Origin: an uncultured Odoribacter sp.
Lineage (GTDB): Bacteria > Bacteroidota > Bacteroidia > Bacteroidales > Marinifilaceae
NCBI GenBank assembly: GCA_944321165.1
Contig: CALUKE010000004.1
Coordinates: 186,001 to 250,000, forward strand
Length of the DNA stretch: 64,000 nt
Direction: 5' to 3'
The translations under genes were made by a program, and so were the position numbers. Shown here piece after piece: positions 21,809 to 30,285 of this stretch (position 1 is the stretch's first letter; each line of letters begins with the position of its first letter). The notes below the pieces were generated by a model. It did not search any database and had not been told where the DNA came from. It worked only from the letters and a program-made list of their open reading frames with translations.

Positions 21809-22279
21809 TCACGACCATTTTCTGTAGGGACACCGGGCCAGACTGGCATTGTAATAGCGCCGATCACCGGTCACTTCCGGTCCTAACCACTCGGGGTGTT
21901 CGAAAGACTCATCCCCGCTTTTCAGTTCGACCTCCGCCACCACCAGGCCCTCGTTTTCGCCCAGAAACTCATCCACCTCGAAGAGATGAGTGCCGACCGG
22001 CACCAGGTGGCGAATCTTATCGATCACCCCCGGTTCGCACAGTGCCAGCAATTCCCGGGCTTCGCCGGCAGGGATCTCCTTTTCCCATTCATAGCGACTC
22101 AGCCCGGAAACATCGCTCTTTCCCTTGATCGTCAGATAGCCCTTCTCTCCCTTCAGGCGCACCCGTACCGTCCGTTCAGGCACCGAGGAAAGATATCCCT
22201 GTGTGATCCGCACAGACTGCCGGACCTGTGACTGAAAGGCGCCCCGTACCAAAAACTTTCTTTCAATTTCCTGTGCCAT
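21809..22279 (-). CDS. CYTH-domain protein (triphosphate tunnel metalloenzyme family)
   Basis: A 156-residue protein that is one CYTH domain. The defining N-terminal ExExK motif is present as 'EIERKFLV' (residues 4-11), followed by 'ITQGYLSS', 'TVRVRLKGEKGYLTIKGKS', 'YEWEKEIP' and 'FEVDEFLGENEGLVVAEVELKS', the alternating charged strands that line the tunnel. Family members hydrolyse tripolyphosphate or nucleoside triphosphates; a few are adenylate cyclases. This size is typical of the stand-alone bacterial group. It begins 6 bp after the stop of the 2231-residue aminotransferase/kinase-like gene, so the two are almost certainly cotranscribed and probably act on related phosphorylated compounds. 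Confidence 0.9.
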   Translation of the reverse strand: MAQEIERKFLVRGAFQSQVRQSVRITQGYLSSVPERTVRVRLKGEKGYLTIKGKSDVSGLSRYEWEKEIPAGEARELLALCEPGVIDKIRHLVPVGTHLFEVDEFLGENEGLVVAEVELKSGDESFEHPEWLGPEVTGDRRYYNASLARCPYRKWS

Positions 22280-22285
22280 CGTTTT

Positions 22286-25200
22286 TTATTTTTTCTTTCC
22301 GCGCACCGCGGTTTTCTTTTCCTTTTCCACCTCCGCTACCGGATTCCGTTCTGCCTCCAGGAATCTCACCACCGCATACTTCGCCGCAGCAATTGTTTCC
22401 CGGTTCACCTTCTCGATCACACTGCCGCGGGCCACATCCTCCGTCGTCACATACCCCTCCATCAGCAGCAGCTGCACGATCATATTGTTGACATTCGTCT
22501 CCTCGCTATATCCTTCGGCTACATACAGCTTCTCCATATGCTCGGCAAACTCCCGGGCAAATTCGGGGTAGTTCGGCAGACTCATCAGCTCTTCGAACGT
22601 CTCGCTGAAACTGCTCAACTCGATATTCAGGTTCGGATTCACCAGCAGCGGACTGAATTCCTGCTTCGGATCTACCGGCCGGAAATTCACCAGATTGCCC
22701 ATATCCACCTTTTTCGTAATATCGTCCATACGCCGGTAATCCGCCTTCTTCATGTTCTCCAGCTGATAGATAAAGAAATTATACCGCCACAGTTCCGAAC
22801 TGTTCATCTCTCCTTTGAAAATATGGCGATACTTCTCGTTCAACAGCCGTTTCACCCGAATCTTCCCTTCGTTGATCTCCGGCCGGTTGATCCGTACCTC
22901 CTGGATCATCCGTTTCAGTTCCATCGCCGCCTTCTGCGGTCCGGTGATTTCCCGTCCCTTCTTGCCGATCTCCGTCGACAGCATGCCGCACTGGATATTC
23001 CGGGCTTTTCCCCGGCCGTCGGCCCCGCCCCGCATCACCCGCACCAGGTTCATCACCGATTCCAGCTGTCCCTCCTCGGCAACAAAAGGCTGTCCGCCGG
23101 GGGTACTGGCCAGCGAGTCGAAGATGGCGCTGAACATCCGGCGGTCGATCCGCATCTCCGTCGTTTCCCCTTCTCCATATGCCACCGTCGCGATGAAACG
23201 GTTCTGAATCATATCGAACGCCACCGTCCGGATCGTATACACCACTCCGTCCCGTTTGAACTGCTTGCCGTCGAAAATCAGATTCACCACCTCCGTCAGG
23301 TTGATCTTGTCCAGCAGCTTATACGAAGAGGCCAGGTAATACTGCTTCTCGCTCTCCACATAATCCCAGTCCAGGATATCGTCCAGGTAATTCCCGTGCC
23401 GGGCCATCACCTCCACGATGTGCTTATCCGCCGTATAGCGTTTCAACGTCCGCTGGAAATTCGGTCCGTCCTGACTGGTCGCCTTCTCCTTCCGTTCGCC
23501 GTGAGCATCCATATACAGCAAAAAATTCTCCGGATTATCCACCCGCGTAATTCCGGCCTCCTCCTTCGAATAATTGCCGGCACTCAGCATGATATCGATC
23601 TTGTACGGCATCGTAATGTCGCACATGCCGCTCACCGTACTCCGTGAGTTCAGGTCCTCCACATTGCTGTCGGCGCTGCTCTCGAACAGGTACTTATAAT
23701 ATTTGATATAATCCGGGTCGAAATCCGTCGTTCGCGAAAAATCGCCCACTTCCGTCCCGATGCCGTACAGATTGCCCTCGGCATCCTGGAATTCGTGGAA
23801 CATATCCCCCGCAATCAGTTTCACGGAGCGCACCCCCTCCAGGTTATTCCTCAGCCATTTCAGGATAAAGGCCGCGATCATCTCTGACTTTCCAACCCCG
23901 CTGTCTCCGTTGATTTCCACGACAAAAATGCTGCCGTCGTTTTCCTCCACGGCAAACAGCGAGCCGTGCCGCGGATTGCCTCCGATCTCCTTGATCTTCT
24001 CGTTGATCACCGTCAGCCGGGGTTTCTTCACATCCCCGAAATAATCCACCTTCTGTTTCAACGGCGTCACAATCGTCTTGATATTCCCGTTCGGTCCCGG
24101 AATATCGAAATAACCGATCTGCGGGAAAGAAATCAACTTCTCCGGAGCCCCCAGAAAACTGATCACATCCGGTACGAAACGGGTGATATCCTCCAGCGAG
24201 ATATCCTCCGTATAATTCAGGCGGTAATTATCCGTCAGGTACTTCAGATAGCCTTTCTGGAAAATCACCAGTTCCTTCACCATCCCGTGTTTCACCACCT
24301 TGCAGCGGTAATCGTCCGAATCCATATTACCGATAAAACGGGCCAGGCGGTGGATAAAAAATGCCGAATCCGGCCGCAGGTCCAGCAGCTTCAGATAATC
24401 ATTCGGTCCTGCCTCCTCCGTCAGTTCCTTCGGCCGGGTCGTCAGGCGGTCCACCTTGTGGAAGGGATACTCCCGTTTCTTCGCATCCGTCACGATGCGG
24501 GTATGCTCCTGCACCGGCTGTTCCGACGAGATCACCCCGCACTTCTGCATCAGCTCATTGATCCATTTCATCCGACCGCCGTCGAAGGTCTCCAGCACCT
24601 TGTTCTCCATCTCGAATCCCTTGTAAATAGAGATGCCGTGTTGCACCATCTCGTTCACACTCGAATTCTGTTTCATAAACGCCGTTTCCACCAGCCGCAC
24701 CAGGGTATGCGTATAGCGCTTGTAATAATCCGTCCCCTTCGTGCGCTTGATCATACTGATATAAAACAGCACCACTTTCCGGCTCACCCGGTGGATCTCC
24801 TTCTCCGCCACCTTGATATCCCGGCGGCGCATGATATAGTCATTCACATCCTTCAGTTGCGAAGGCATGATCTCCGTAATAAACTCCTCGGTAAACATCT
24901 TCACCTCCCCGTCCTCGCAGGCCTCGATCCGGTCGCTGAAATACTTCAGCTTGGCCGACACCAGACGGTAAAACGAGTGGTCGTTATGCAGCAGATAGAG
25001 GAACAGAATCTGGTCCGTCACCGCCATATGCTCCCGGTGGATTCCCGCCGCAATCGAATCCATGATATAGCCCATGCAGCGTTGTGCCAGCAGAGTCTCC
25101 CGGAACTCCGGCAGCGCCCGCAGGCGGTTGATAAACTCATCCACCCAGATCTGCAGGTTCAGATCGCTCAGCCGGATGCCGATGATCTCCTCGAACATCT

Positions 25201-28200
25201 CCCCGGCCACCCGCACGATCTCCTTCCTGCTGGGTTCCAGACTTTCCTTCTCAAACGGCAAGTTGAAATGCAGCAAGATCTCGCGGATATACTTCTTGAG
25301 GATCACATTGATTCCTTCCAGTTTCGACTTGTCCAGTTCGGGATGGCCCGTCGCGTCGATCGCCAGAATCTTCACCTTGCTGTCCGAAAACAGCAGGTGT
25401 TCCATCTCGATCAGGATCTCCCGCATCACATTCTTCTCCATCGGATCATCCAACACATTGTAATTCGGCTGGAACGTCTTCTTATTCGTGATATACTTCA
25501 AGATCACCGCCTTGCTGTACTTCGAGCTCACCGTATTGAAATCCAGGTCCGCAATCGCCGGTATCTGCTTATAGATCTGTGCCAGCAGATTCTCATACAC
25601 CTTGGTAAAGGCCGAGCTGCGGATAAACTCAAACACATCCCGGCACGAACCGATCTTGTCGCCGTGCAGTTCGATCACCGAATTCACCGAGCGGTCGATG
25701 GTCGTAATACTCACCCCGCTGCGTTCCGGAGAGGCATGATACAGCGTCCGGATATCCCGGATCTGCAAAGACGGAGCCTTATCCTTCCGGTACTTCGCCG
25801 ACAGCGGATAATCCGCGATCACCTCATCGATCAGCTCCTGCACCTTCGCACAGGCAAACAGCTCCTCCAGAATCACCTGGCTCTCCACCTCCTTATAGGC
25901 CGGATCCTGCCGTTTCGCCGCAAAGCGGGTCCAGTACTTCACAAAAATCGTAAACCCGTCCTCCAGTTCATACTTAAACACCTGCTTGCTCTCCTCCGTA
26001 TCCGCCAGGAAACCGCCGATCGCAAAGCGCACCAGTCCCGTCGGGTAGGGTACTGCCGCAATTCCCCGGTGCAACGCCAGATACTGGCAGAAACAGAGCA
26101 GATCGGCATACGAGCATCCCTCTCCCACCCGGAAATTAAACAGATAAGAGCCGTCCGAGGGCAGGCAGGTCACCTCCGTCCCCTCAAACCGCGCCAACAC
26201 CCGGGCCGCCACCTCCTTCGCCCAACTCATCCGCTGCAGCGACTCCGTACGGAAATTCTTATTCACCCGGAAGCGGTTCAGGTTCTCCACCAACCGTTTC
26301 TGATAATAGACAAAAAACGGTTCCTGGTGATACTTAAAATCATCCGGCAGCGCCAGAATATCCAGTTTATCCAGAGCCACCAGTTCATCCAGCAGAAACA
26401 GGTAGAGGGGACTGCCCTCAAAACCGGCCGTCTTGTGCAGCTGCCGGTTCGCCACGCTGTTGGCATTCGACTGCTCGGTCCGTCCGATCTGGTCATTGAT
26501 AAAGCGCACCAGTGTCTCCTTGATCTTAAATCGGGAGGCATTCTTCGGCAACTCGCTTTCCAGGGTATCCTTGATTTTCTTCGCCACCTGGGCAATCTCC
26601 AGCAGGTTATTCAACATCAGCAGCGAATTGTTATTGCCGTGCGAGCTGGCGTTGTGCTGACGGACAAACTCCGCCACCGCAGCTGCCTGCGGTGTCACGG
26701 CCAGGGCCCCCAAGCGGTCGCCGGTGGCCGACAGATTCTTGGTCGTCGACAGCGACGACACCGCCCGGATATTCGACTGGGCGTTGATATTATTGATGAT
26801 ATAACGTGAAATCGTCCGCCATTTCGGCATTTGCTTATCCGTCACTTTCACACTGTCCGCATACGCCTCGTCCAGGAAAAGGGTGATCTTACAGGTATTC
26901 ATCAGCTTCAGGAAAGCATTCAGCACCTCCGTATTGAAATCCGTATACCCCGTCGGATTGTTCGGATCATTGATCAGGATCGTCGTATTCTCGCAGAACA
27001 GATCCCACAGACTACCGCTGTCATCGAACAGCGACAGCGTCGACTTGATGCGCAACAGTTTGTCCGTCAAGCGCTCATACGCTAACCGTCCGTCCGGCAG
27101 GTTCTCGATCTCTATATCGAACGGATTGATATCGAAGGCATCGTCCGGCAGCAGGTCCTTATACTCCCAGGCCTGCATTGCATTGTATATAATATACGGT
27201 TTCGGTCTTCCGTTCGGGTTAAACAGCAGATCCCGGATAATCATCTGCACCGAATCGGACACCGACGTCTGCTCCAGATTACCCAGGGCCGACAGGAACT
27301 CCTTCACCACATTCTGGTCCGCCTCGGGCAGCGCCCGGTACTTCTCCCGGATGCCCAGGTCATTCAGGAAATTGTCATACCGTCCCTTGTTGTTCGCATC
27401 GTTATCCACCTTCGTGATATAGGCCTGATATTTCTCCAGAAACAGGTTGATGCCGAAATTCTTGTGGAAATGATTTTTCAGCGTCCGTTCATAATTACTG
27501 GGGATAATACCCAAAATCAGCTCACAGGCCTTATACACCTTCTCTTCCAGCCGGTGCAACGGTTTCTGCAACAGATAACTCCCAAAAGTGCGGATCTGGT
27601 TCCGTCCTCCCCCCTCCAGCACACTCAGCACCTGTATCTGCGGGCTGTCGGAATAAAAATACTGCCGGATGCGGCTTTCGAACTCATCGATCAGCTCGCG
27701 GGTCTGCACCTGCCGTTTCTCCTCCTTGTGGCAATTCTCCAGAAAATAGATAAAATCCCGCAGTTTCTCCAGCGAATACTTATCCTGCACGATCTTGCGC
27801 GAAAACATATCCAGTTTGAACACATTCAGGCGTTTCACGGCATCCTCCGTCGTTCCGATCTGTTCCGTCAGGATCTGCCGGATTTCCGCCTCATACTCCC
27901 GGATCTGCGCCTCGATCTTCTCCCGGAACTCCACTAAGAAAGAAGGGTTCACATTCTCCAGGATCAGCCGCAGATTCAGCTGCGTATTCGCCGGCGACCC
28001 CAGTTTCTTCGTATGCACCTTGTTCAATGTATTGATAATGCCGTTGTGGAAACAGAACACCAACGACGTATTCGAACTGCGCGATTCCCGCGAATCGTCC
28101 ACGATCACCAGACGGGTCAGCAGCGGGAACCACTTCTCTCCGGAAAAGGGGTTCACCCGCATGTGACGGGCCTTCACCACAAACACCGAAGTCGTATCCA

Positions 28201-28981
28201 CGCTCATCCGTTCGAACAGCTCCTCTGCCGACGGATTCTCCATCACCTGCACACTGTTTCGGCCAAACACATCACCCCGGATCAGGCTCACCGCCTTATC
28301 CGCATTTCCCGACACCACCGTCGTGATCATCCCGTTCAGTCCCTTGAAATTCACGGCCCAACGCATCCGGTTCAGAAAGTCCGCCTTCTCCGCTCCCGTC
28401 GTGTAGTGGGTACTCTGGCTGATCATCTGCTCAAGCGTATCCATCAGGTAATTCCAGTGGGCCTCATTCAGATCGCCCGTCACCCCAATCACATCGCGAT
28501 ACTTCCGCAGGTCGCGCACCTGGCCACCCAGCTGCACCTGCGAAATAAACTCGATGTGACTGCTGCGCACCGGGGGTATCCCCACCGAAAAATCATGTGT
28601 ATCCTTGATATTCTTCAGGAGAATCTTCTCATCCGGATTCACCGTTTCCGTATCCAGGCACTCATTGATCTTCCTGACAAACTCTGCCCGCCGTCCGCTC
28701 AGTTCGAATGCCTTCGAATCATTATGCGGACAAAGCATCAGCGACACATCCGTATAGCCCGGAATATCCTCCCGGAACTTCAGCAGATAGCGGTTGATCT
28801 CCGACTGCTGTGCCGTCGGATCATCCGGTTCCTCAAAACAAAGCTTTACAAAACTGGTCAGGTTGTCATAAATATGCCGCGGCAGAAAAATCTCTGCCCG
28901 TTCCCCCAACGATTCATAAAGATTCAATAATTGCCGGGCCTCATTGCTCAGAAACGCCCTCGGTTCTCCTTTGATTTTCAT
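22286..28981 (-). CDS. Giant fusion protein: fold-type I PLP aminotransferase plus HPrK/PEPCK-like P-loop domain
   Basis: A 2231-residue protein without signal peptide or membrane segment. Residues 1-590 are of unknown, largely helical character. Residues about 590-1000 are a class I/II aminotransferase-like domain: 'NDPNNPTG' (671-678), 'LFLDEAYADS' (701-710, with D704 and Y707), PLP lysine K748 in 'LSTTKNLSATGDRLG', phosphate-binding R756 and the substrate carboxylate arginine R985 in 'TGLVRFAIGG'. All key residues are kept, so it should bind PLP. Residues 1000-1660 are helical and unassigned. Residues about 1670-1900 hold a Walker A 'GDSGVGKSE' (1692-1700), whose form recalls HPr kinase, followed by 'LIAGDMFHEF' and 'IDIMLSAGNY', which recall the PEPCK/HPrK superfamily. 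The C terminus ends in a Lys-rich tail. The substrate and reaction are unknown. It is followed by a CYTH gene and preceded by an attenuator-like leader. Confidence 0.88.
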   Translation of the reverse strand: MKIKGEPRAFLSNEARQLLNLYESLGERAEIFLPRHIYDNLTSFVKLCFEEPDDPTAQQSEINRYLLKFREDIPGYTDVSLMLCPHNDSKAFELSGRRAEFVRKINECLDTETVNPDEKILLKNIKDTHDFSVGIPPVRSSHIEFISQVQLGGQVRDLRKYRDVIGVTGDLNEAHWNYLMDTLEQMISQSTHYTTGAEKADFLNRMRWAVNFKGLNGMITTVVSGNADKAVSLIRGDVFGRNSVQVMENPSAEELFERMSVDTTSVFVVKARHMRVNPFSGEKWFPLLTRLVIVDDSRESRSSNTSLVFCFHNGIINTLNKVHTKKLGSPANTQLNLRLILENVNPSFLVEFREKIEAQIREYEAEIRQILTEQIGTTEDAVKRLNVFKLDMFSRKIVQDKYSLEKLRDFIYFLENCHKEEKRQVQTRELIDEFESRIRQYFYSDSPQIQVLSVLEGGGRNQIRTFGSYLLQKPLHRLEEKVYKACELILGIIPSNYERTLKNHFHKNFGINLFLEKYQAYITKVDNDANNKGRYDNFLNDLGIREKYRALPEADQNVVKEFLSALGNLEQTSVSDSVQMIIRDLLFNPNGRPKPYIIYNAMQAWEYKDLLPDDAFDINPFDIEIENLPDGRLAYERLTDKLLRIKSTLSLFDDSGSLWDLFCENTTILINDPNNPTGYTDFNTEVLNAFLKLMNTCKITLFLDEAYADSVKVTDKQMPKWRTISRYIINNINAQSNIRAVSSLSTTKNLSATGDRLGALAVTPQAAAVAEFVRQHNASSHGNNNSLLMLNNLLEIAQVAKKIKDTLESELPKNASRFKIKETLVRFINDQIGRTEQSNANSVANRQLHKTAGFEGSPLYLFLLDELVALDKLDILALPDDFKYHQEPFFVYYQKRLVENLNRFRVNKNFRTESLQRMSWAKEVAARVLARFEGTEVTCLPSDGSYLFNFRVGEGCSYADLLCFCQYLALHRGIAAVPYPTGLVRFAIGGFLADTEESKQVFKYELEDGFTIFVKYWTRFAAKRQDPAYKEVESQVILEELFACAKVQELIDEVIADYPLSAKYRKDKAPSLQIRDIRTLYHASPERSGVSITTIDRSVNSVIELHGDKIGSCRDVFEFIRSSAFTKVYENLLAQIYKQIPAIADLDFNTVSSKYSKAVILKYITNKKTFQPNYNVLDDPMEKNVMREILIEMEHLLFSDSKVKILAIDATGHPELDKSKLEGINVILKKYIREILLHFNLPFEKESLEPSRKEIVRVAGEMFEEIIGIRLSDLNLQIWVDEFINRLRALPEFRETLLAQRCMGYIMDSIAAGIHREHMAVTDQILFLYLLHNDHSFYRLVSAKLKYFSDRIEACEDGEVKMFTEEFITEIMPSQLKDVNDYIMRRRDIKVAEKEIHRVSRKVVLFYISMIKRTKGTDYYKRYTHTLVRLVETAFMKQNSSVNEMVQHGISIYKGFEMENKVLETFDGGRMKWINELMQKCGVISSEQPVQEHTRIVTDAKKREYPFHKVDRLTTRPKELTEEAGPNDYLKLLDLRPDSAFFIHRLARFIGNMDSDDYRCKVVKHGMVKELVIFQKGYLKYLTDNYRLNYTEDISLEDITRFVPDVISFLGAPEKLISFPQIGYFDIPGPNGNIKTIVTPLKQKVDYFGDVKKPRLTVINEKIKEIGGNPRHGSLFAVEENDGSIFVVEINGDSGVGKSEMIAAFILKWLRNNLEGVRSVKLIAGDMFHEFQDAEGNLYGIGTEVGDFSRTTDFDPDYIKYYKYLFESSADSNVEDLNSRSTVSGMCDITMPYKIDIMLSAGNYSKEEAGITRVDNPENFLLYMDAHGERKEKATSQDGPNFQRTLKRYTADKHIVEVMARHGNYLDDILDWDYVESEKQYYLASSYKLLDKINLTEVVNLIFDGKQFKRDGVVYTIRTVAFDMIQNRFIATVAYGEGETTEMRIDRRMFSAIFDSLASTPGGQPFVAEEGQLESVMNLVRVMRGGADGRGKARNIQCGMLSTEIGKKGREITGPQKAAMELKRMIQEVRINRPEINEGKIRVKRLLNEKYRHIFKGEMNSSELWRYNFFIYQLENMKKADYRRMDDITKKVDMGNLVNFRPVDPKQEFSPLLVNPNLNIELSSFSETFEELMSLPNYPEFAREFAEHMEKLYVAEGYSEETNVNNMIVQLLLMEGYVTTEDVARGSVIEKVNRETIAAAKYAVVRFLEAERNPVAEVEKEKKTAVRGKKK

Positions 28982-29002: not shown

Positions 29003-29033
29003 TCAAAAAAAAAGCCCGCCTTTCAGCGAGCTT
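29003..29033 (-). terminator. Intrinsic terminator in the leader of the giant gene (attenuator)
   Basis: On the minus strand AAGCTCGC (29033-29026) pairs with GCGGGCTT (29019-29012; one G-T wobble) around a 6-nt loop, followed by about eight T residues. Only about 20 nt separate the T run from the start codon of the giant gene, too little for a promoter, so transcription of that gene must pass through this terminator. Confidence 0.7.
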
Positions 29034-29036
29034 CCC

Positions 29037-29126
29037 TTATTCCTTCCCTTCTTTTATGCCAACAGAAGCCCGCAACGTAATTCTACGTTTAAAATTATCA
29101 TTGCGTTTCATCATGGTTGACATCAT
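29037..29126 (-). CDS. Possible 29-residue leader peptide
   Basis: A short open frame begins MMSTMMKRNDNFKRR and ends GIKEGKE, stopping 3 nt before the terminator stem. It is basic, with four Arg and five Lys codons. A GAGGAAAA sequence lies about 10 nt upstream of the first ATG as a possible ribosome-binding site. Its codons 18-21 contain GCGGGCTT, an exact copy of the 3' arm of the terminator. It could be a regulatory leader peptide or a small protein in its own right. Translation is not proven. Confidence 0.4.
   Translation of the reverse strand: MMSTMMKRNDNFKRRITLRASVGIKEGKE
29066..29073 (-). promoter_or_regulatory. Antiterminator arm in the giant-gene leader
   Basis: The minus strand reads GCGGGCTT, identical to the terminator's 3' arm, and could pair with AAGCTCGC (29033-29026) instead, preventing the terminator. 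A small AACGTA/TACGTT hairpin (29074-29089) lies just upstream. The remaining gap up to 29316 shows a near-consensus -7 box (complement of 29155-29162, one mismatch) and nothing else I can assign. Confidence 0.45.
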
Positions 29127-29316
29127 AAGAATATCGTTTTCCTCAATTTTGGTACAATATTAAAAATTAATATGCTAAAAATGAAGCCCTTGTTAAAGAA
29201 AAGCAAACTTTTTGTTAGAAAACGTTTGAAAAAACCAGAAACATACAAGATGTATAATTTACAACATCCACTGGTTATATATTTCTACCAATATCAATGA
29301 AAACGTCAGTTTCATC

Positions 29317-30285
29317 CTATTTCTCATCCATCTCAATACTTTCTATTTCCTCCGCAGACAATTGCGTATACTTTGCTATCACCTCTACCGGTACTCCATC
29401 CGCCTTCATACGTTTTGCCATCTCCAGACGTTCTGTACTCCGTCCCTGTTCCATTCCTTGAGCCATGCCCTTTTCGATCCCTTGAGCCATGCCTTGAGCC
29501 ATGCCCTGAGCCATGCCTTGAGCCATTCCCTGAGCCATTCCCTTTTCGATCCCCTGAGCCATACCCTTCCGTTCCGCCTCGCTGACAATCGTCTTCTCCA
29601 CGCGTACTGCATCCCAGAACTCGTCATATCCCAGCAACTGTGCATCGCTGAAAGCCGATTCCTCAATCTGGTCCACCGCCTTCTTTATCTCCGGATTATC
29701 CATCAAATCCTGAGGGATCTGCCGTGTCTGTTCATCAATCTCCGTCAGATAGCGCAGCCACAACACCTGCATCTTCTTCTCATGGTAAGTATGCGCCTTG
29801 AACTTCGGCAACTCCACAAAAATGAAACGCAATCCTTCGATGATACGATCCGAATGCTCCATGCACACAATACGGTAATCATGATAATACTCCTCCACCT
29901 CCGGAGCAAAAATATCATTCACCAGGTTCAAGGAATAGACCGGCTGAAGCAGCTCATACTTCTCCTTACCGTCCAGCTGTCTCACATAAGCCTTTGAAGC
30001 ATTGAACAGCACCCTTTGCATGAAAGCCGGTGACCACAGCATCTGCATCTCAACGATAAACTGTCGTCCTTTTCTGTCGCGGCACCTCACATCCACGATG
30101 CTGTTTTTCTTCAATGGTGTATCAGGCACCAGTTCCGCAGGCAAATACTCGATCTCTTCTATTTCCTCTTCAGGAGTTTCGAAAGGCAACAATGCATTCA
30201 GCAAGCTCCGAATCAAGTCCGGATGCTCACCAAACACCTTTTTGAAAGTCAGGTCGGCTTTGGGATTCAAGTATCTCATATCCAA
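29317..30285 (-). CDS. Rpn family PD-(D/E)XK nuclease (recombination-promoting / 'putative transposase' family)
   Basis: A 322-residue protein with the typical Rpn N terminus 'YLNPKADLTFKKVFGEHPDL' and a nuclease core 'KKNSIVDVRCRDRKGRQFIVEMQ', giving D65 and E79-x-Q81 as the probable catalytic set of the PD-(D/E)XK fold. The central part ('MQRVLFNASKAYVRQL', 'VYSLNLVNDIF') matches the family. The tail (about 236-280) is a low-complexity run of GMAQ and GIEK units before a final helix. Rpn proteins nick DNA and promote recombination; many are annotated as transposases but have no terminal repeats, and none were seen here. It appears to be a single-gene unit: a candidate -7 box (complement TATTTTTG, 30306-30313) lies 21 bp upstream. 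Confidence 0.9.
   Translation of the reverse strand: MDMRYLNPKADLTFKKVFGEHPDLIRSLLNALLPFETPEEEIEEIEYLPAELVPDTPLKKNSIVDVRCRDRKGRQFIVEMQMLWSPAFMQRVLFNASKAYVRQLDGKEKYELLQPVYSLNLVNDIFAPEVEEYYHDYRIVCMEHSDRIIEGLRFIFVELPKFKAHTYHEKKMQVLWLRYLTEIDEQTRQIPQDLMDNPEIKKAVDQIEESAFSDAQLLGYDEFWDAVRVEKTIVSEAERKGMAQGIEKGMAQGMAQGMAQGMAQGMAQGIEKGMAQGMEQGRSTERLEMAKRMKADGVPVEVIAKYTQLSAEEIESIEMDEK
29455..29575 (-). repeat. 12-bp tandem repeats inside the Rpn gene
   Basis: About eight near-identical 12-bp units (variants of GAGCCATGCCTT on the plus strand) encode GMAQ, with two GIEK variants. The unit length keeps the frame, so copy-number change would alter protein length without breaking it. Confidence 0.85.

Follow-up and report, generated by a model that had tools for sequence, protein, structure and literature searches.

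Results

Genes and features at the locus

On its minus strand, the window (the whole stretch of DNA analyzed, 64,000 nucleotides from an uncultured Odoribacter sp.) carries a very large gene, here termed the giant gene, preceded by a leader with a short open reading frame (uORF), several complementary segments, and an intrinsic terminator. The features, in the order in which they would be transcribed, are as follows.

29155 to 29162, minus strand: -7-like promoter box, TAATATTG
29037 to 29126, minus strand: leader ORF (uORF), MMSTMMKRNDNFKRRITLRASVGIKEGKE, 29 codons, with its ATG at 29126 and its TAA at 29039 to 29037
29116 to 29123, minus strand: segment 1, 5' strand of the outer stem P1, AUGUCAAC (from the RNAalifold consensus and pair counts)
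29099 to 29109, minus strand: segment 1, inner part, GAAACGC in the window and a GAAGCU-like arm in relatives
29074 to 29089, minus strand: inner hairpin P2, AACGTA-GAAT-TACGTT, abutting arm 2 and 100% paired in five species
29065 to 29073, minus strand: segment 2 (arm 2), GCGGGCTTC, within uORF codons 18 to 21
29056 to 29063, minus strand: 3' strand of P1, GUUGGCAU (from the RNAalifold consensus and pair counts)
29026 to 29034, minus strand: segment 3 (arm 3), GAAGCTCGC, common to antiterminator and terminator
29005 to 29019, minus strand: segment 4 (arm 4), GCGGGCTT with nine T, the intrinsic terminator, its stem 100% paired in five species
22286 to 28981, minus strand: giant gene, the presumed target of control; its product (2231 aa) includes an aminotransferase-fold stretch and also a P-loop

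Homologues of the giant protein are 50 to 93% identical to it over the full length. The sole recognized stretch, an aminotransferase class I/II region (residues 665 to 798), is found in 11/11 of them; an invariant P-loop, GDSGVGKSE, lies at residues 1692 to 1700, with a weak resemblance to HPr kinase in 2/11. A PDB profile search gave one weak match, to ACC synthase (E value of 0.0087), structure predictions for two parts of the protein were of low or middling confidence, and a fold search matched aminotransferases only at E values of 0.01 and above. Nothing convincing came from a search of a defense library. The gene is patchy in Bacteroidales (16/295 genomes of the order), and the genes downstream of it are not conserved among relatives. 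In the window, a CYTH-domain protein (21809 to 22279, minus strand) is encoded directly after the giant gene on the same strand; a CYTH-like ORF, recognized by eye, follows it in one relative, G005, and in none of the others inspected. Directly upstream of the leader lies a gene for an Rpn-family nuclease with a MAQGxEKG-type repetitive tail (29317 to 30276, minus strand); in the other four species that carry a leader, this gene does not precede the giant gene.

At base level, the ORF, the arms, the T run, the start of the giant gene, and the repeated arm in codons 18 to 21 are all as the original prediction had described them. Eight of the 29 uORF codons specify Lys or Arg, and the stop codon ends 3 nt 5' of AAGCTCGC (29033 to 29026). 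A TGAAAG loop separates AAGCTCGC from the terminator 3' arm GCGGGCTT (29019 to 29012), the nine T of the T run occupy 29013 to 29005, and 23 nt lie between the T run and the giant gene ATG (28981). The arm GCGGGCTT is copied exactly at 29073 to 29066, and a repeat search lengthened the match to 13 nt (85% identity; 29073 to 29061 versus 29019 to 29007). A simple terminator scan did not list this terminator, probably because the stem takes in the T run. The prediction had proposed three arms; we found four segments, and segment 1, the inner hairpin, and the position of the stop codon at segment 3 had been missed.

A putative promoter in front of the uORF

The box 5' of the uORF resembles the Bacteroidetes -7 element, TAnnTTTG (PMC7366714), and TTAATATTG is conserved at this place in 5/5 leaders. 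Judging from the box, transcription would start at about 29148, and the coordinates of the element should reach about 29162 to take it in. The intrinsic terminator thus appears to lie between the promoter and the gene that it would serve, as expected of an attenuator. With a promoter-like box 5' of the ORF and a terminator 3' of it, expression of the giant gene would require readthrough, as had been proposed from the sequence.

The box, the ORF, and the terminator could also form a complete small unit, i.e., a separate gene that specifies a small RNA or a small basic protein and ends at a terminator of its own, the giant gene being transcribed from another start. We consider this very unlikely. 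A start between terminator and gene, which would also have contradicted the original prediction, is not suggested by the window, where those 23 nt hold no promoter-like box, nor by the other species, where this distance ranges from 23 to about 72 nt with no conserved box within it. Moreover, the leader peptide is weakly conserved, and the leader is always fixed to the giant gene and was never found elsewhere in the genomes searched.

The leader is linked to the giant gene

A DNA search of 59 relatives gave only three strong matches to the leader beyond the window itself; weaker matches were short and probably due to chance. A covariance model was searched against 56 genomes of the family and 295 of the order (about 350 Bacteroidales genomes). 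Five leaders scored 97 to 107 bits, and the next best match scored 42. The best other matches that were inspected among the family and order genomes were rejected as leaders, being plain terminators after genes or having no leader, and arm 2 was found in none of them. The leader is thus present exactly once in each of five species from two genera (G000, G002, G005, G029, and G066), and it precedes the giant gene in 5/5. The gene upstream of it is different every time: the Rpn nuclease in the window and, in the other four, an opposite-strand gene (with metK beyond), a SusD-like gene, an unassigned 252-aa ORF, and a porin-like gene (names assigned by eye). Since all five upstream genes differ, it is the giant gene that the leader accompanies. 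No such leader was seen at giant-gene homologues in Rikenellaceae, Marinilabiliales, UBA7332, or others inspected.

The leader is absent from a congener, G004, in which the giant gene start, located at a contig end, is 95% identical over 43 residues. There, TAGTTTTG stands at the corresponding place, directly before the giant gene. The last 130 nt of this contig (C142, locus L107) therefore look like a natural leaderless version, with the promoter-like box abutting the giant gene.

The arrangement of the arms goes beyond what chance would give. The pattern CGGGCTTCT-N20-50-AAGCTCGC occurs once per genome in 5/56 family genomes, each time before the giant gene, and the reversed control pattern has one match across all 56. 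Among 87 distinct terminators taken from the window and the loci of relatives, the only ones with an identical 8-mer of the 3' arm 12 to 90 nt upstream were those of the leader family (3 cases) and one in a low-complexity duplication. The region from 29160 to 28995 folds at -46.3 kcal/mol versus -29.5 kcal/mol in dinucleotide shuffles (z score of -5.1; 0/200 equally good).

The repeated arm, whose absence from close homologues would have spoken against the prediction, is present in them. Arm 2 has a single letter changed in G005 (7/8 letters kept) and none in the other species, arm 3 is identical across the five species apart from the first base in G029, and arm 4 has one letter changed in G066. 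The mutually exclusive antiterminator and terminator that had been proposed are accordingly kept in all five.

Four segments with competing pairings

RNAalifold, run without a prior structure on an alignment of the five leaders only, joins the start-codon region to the bases after arm 2 in an outer stem. It also yields a GAAGCU-like arm, located where the ORF begins and paired with arm 2, as well as the inner hairpin and the terminator; in the window, the inner part of segment 1 includes CGCAATG, which pairs with CGTTGCG. In this 1:2 fold with the inner hairpin, 85.5% of the cells pair and 6/22 pairs have double changes; deriving the structure from the same five sequences biases the first figure, and the double changes less. 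The covariation score is 0.268, versus 0.168 in shuffles (0/500) and 0.045 to 0.132 when the structure is slid along the alignment. In G029, two compensatory pairs turn the inner hairpin from AACGTA/TACGTT into AACGCG/CGCGTT; in G066, one U-G pair of the terminator stem is replaced by U-A. In every species, the duplex of segments 1 and 2 is stronger than the average for dinucleotide shuffles, with 18, 31, 6, 34, and 0 of 300 shuffles equally good.

Covariation of the arms had been put forward as a check of the prediction. It is borne out for the 1:2 fold with the inner hairpin by the six double-change pairs. The antiterminator GCGGGCTTC:GAAGCTCGC is likewise maintained, with 95.6% of its cells paired in the five species, and covariation in 2:3 is out of reach because arms 2 and 3 hardly vary. 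The leader is thus a real and conserved element. It is linked to a single gene and has the build of a leader-peptide attenuator, with four segments in 1:2, 2:3, and 3:4 pairing, an antiterminator that competes for an arm of the terminator, and an anti-antiterminator (1:2) close to the ORF start.

A terminator could also act without any regulation, as a fixed partial brake on a costly 6.7-kb gene that reduces its expression, the arm copy being a leftover of duplication. The terminator is indeed the most conserved part of the leader, and G004 lives without a leader. However, arm 2, the inner hairpin, the 1:2 pairing, and a spacing of 30 to 34 nt are kept in five species despite a diverged upstream half, and we regard this explanation as improbable.

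Without a ribosome, the equilibrium probability of 2:3 is 0.02 in G066, 0.16 in the window, and 0.82 to 0.98 in the others (G005, G002, and G029). These last three leaders thus favor 2:3 before arm 4 exists, and the 1:2 state would therefore need kinetic precedence if a lack of translation is to lead to termination; its order in the transcript allows it to form first. The inner hairpin followed by GCGGGCTTCT and a G (29063 to 29089, minus strand) fits a hairpin-type RNA polymerase pause (G-10, Y-1, G+1). This pattern is seen in the window and in G002 and not in the other three leaders; such a pause could time polymerase and ribosome. In addition, P1, arm 2, and arm 3 (29026 to 29123, minus strand) are ordered as in an H-type pseudoknot, with a linker rich in purines, and judged from this order, a stacked pseudoknot antiterminator is possible.

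The uORF as a possible track for ribosomes

The frame containing arm 2 is open from an ATG in 5/5 species, over 25 to 35 codons, and the other two frames contain 1 to 6 stops over the same stretch. Arm 2 is in the identical reading frame in 5/5 leaders. When the upstream DNA is shuffled, a frame this open arises with a probability of 0.11 to 0.32 per leader, so that the five open frames together are suggestive and not proof. The peptide is weakly conserved, with 40, 26, and 42 changes at the three codon positions and 13 synonymous versus 51 nonsynonymous codon differences. The exceptions are Lys-Arg and Leu-Arg-Ala-Ser, whose letters double as the inner hairpin and arm 2. Since the peptide varies freely and the letters that are kept serve the RNA, the ORF may matter as a track for ribosomes rather than for its product. 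No run of codons for one amino acid was found in the five leader ORFs, and only Lys-Arg is common to all of them; because this codon run was tested and not found, we do not claim a link to classical amino acid attenuators. The distance from Lys-Arg to arm 2 shows no indel, and the stop codon starts -11 to +9 nt from arm 3 in the five species.

We modeled the RNA up to arm 3 with a ribosome footprint masked, using offsets of 11, 13, and 15. In this model, the pairing of 2:3 is 0.8 to 1.0 in 5/5 leaders as long as the A site has not passed the conserved Arg in Lys-Arg, and it drops near zero within one or two codons past this residue.

The RNA could also switch independently of translation, a ligand, a protein, or a small RNA stabilizing the 5' fold and the ORF being incidental. 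The two forms would be 1:2 (OFF) and an H-type pseudoknot with P1 and arm 2:arm 3 stacked (ON), and the likeness to fluoride and preQ1 riboswitches would lie in such a pseudoknot opposing a terminator through a shared arm. The succession of P1 strand, inner hairpin, arm 2, P1 strand, linker, and arm 3 has the order required, 0 to 2 nt separate arm 2 from P1 in the alignment, and the RNA pairs compensate in a leader with a weakly conserved peptide. Unlike in those riboswitches, there is no Rfam match at the gathering score (none anywhere in the window), the reading frame is kept open in 5/5 leaders, and the P1 sequence is unconserved. A ligand-sensing version also sits poorly with an upstream half that has few of the invariant unpaired bases usually kept in natural ligand pockets. 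We therefore hold a translation-independent switch to be rather unlikely, if less so than a fixed terminator.

Discussion

Proposed mechanism

We conclude that the element is likely a transcription attenuator and, with somewhat less confidence, that it is probably read by the ribosome, four segments controlling the giant gene. The sequences establish the parts, their conservation, their tie to the giant gene, and compensatory changes in 1:2 and in the inner hairpin; that termination takes place in vivo, that the ORF is translated, and in which direction control runs are inferences. Transcription would start near 29148. With no ribosome loaded, segment 1, in the start-codon region, would pair with segment 2 and the bases that follow, leaving segments 3 and 4 to build the terminator about 20 nt upstream of the giant gene. 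If a ribosome were held on the first 13 to 15 codons, up to the conserved Lys-Arg, it would remove segment 1 and leave segment 2 free, so that 2:3 would form first and RNA polymerase would read on into the giant gene. Once the ribosome had moved on, it would cover segment 2 and the terminator would win. Candidate signals are the general speed or initiation of translation, a charged tRNA, or a drug.

The leader departs most from the classical layout in having its stop codon at segment 3. A ribosome paused there would mask arm 3 and so block both hairpins. This suggests, quite tentatively, a logic of three states, in which a stall at Lys-Arg leads to readthrough, a ribosome in mid-ORF leads to termination, and one that has reached the stop codon leads to readthrough again. 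If true, such a leader would respond to the status of translation instead of to a single amino acid, and a giant protein in Bacteroidota would be under its control.

Ribosomes of Bacteroidota hardly use Shine-Dalgarno pairing, and transcription-translation coupling is little studied there. A compact leader kept in five species, together with a leaderless relative, offers a good test of ribosome-steered termination in this phylum. The leader also offers a first handle on when the orphan 2231-aa protein is made.

Comparison with known systems

The leader appears to belong to a known regulatory type, and what is unusual is its target and the position of its stop codon. Drug-sensing uORFs, such as that of topAI in E. 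coli (PMC12121999) and the erm leaders, are likewise short and basic, with a stalled ribosome that could alter the downstream fold. They differ in that our leader has no known link to a drug and has Lys-Arg-Lys/Arg at the decision point in only 4/5 species.

The closest parallel in architecture is with the trpL/hisL-type attenuators of Proteobacteria, which also combine a short ORF, 1:2, 2:3, and 3:4 segments, an intrinsic terminator, and, as predicted for the leader here, a decision made by the ribosome footprint. In contrast to these, the leader described here has no run of one codon, carries an extra hairpin inside 1:2, has its stop codon at segment 3 rather than before or in segment 2, and precedes a gene that does not look like part of an amino acid operon. 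In trpL, the stop comes earlier, and a ribosome waiting there favors termination.

Leader-peptide attenuation is textbook knowledge in Proteobacteria and thinly documented in Bacteroidota. The statement in the original prediction that few examples exist in this phylum is roughly fair: attenuation by leader peptides was suggested at amino acid operons of Flavobacterium psychrophilum from transcriptome maps (PMC9723704), and leader-like small ORFs in long 5' untranslated regions of Bacteroides thetaiotaomicron were suggested to act by attenuation (PMC7366714). Those cases share with ours the phylum, a short ORF in a long 5' leader, and a proposed attenuation. Whereas they concern amino acid operons or unvalidated small ORFs, the leader reported here stands before a single orphan giant gene and has structural support from five species.
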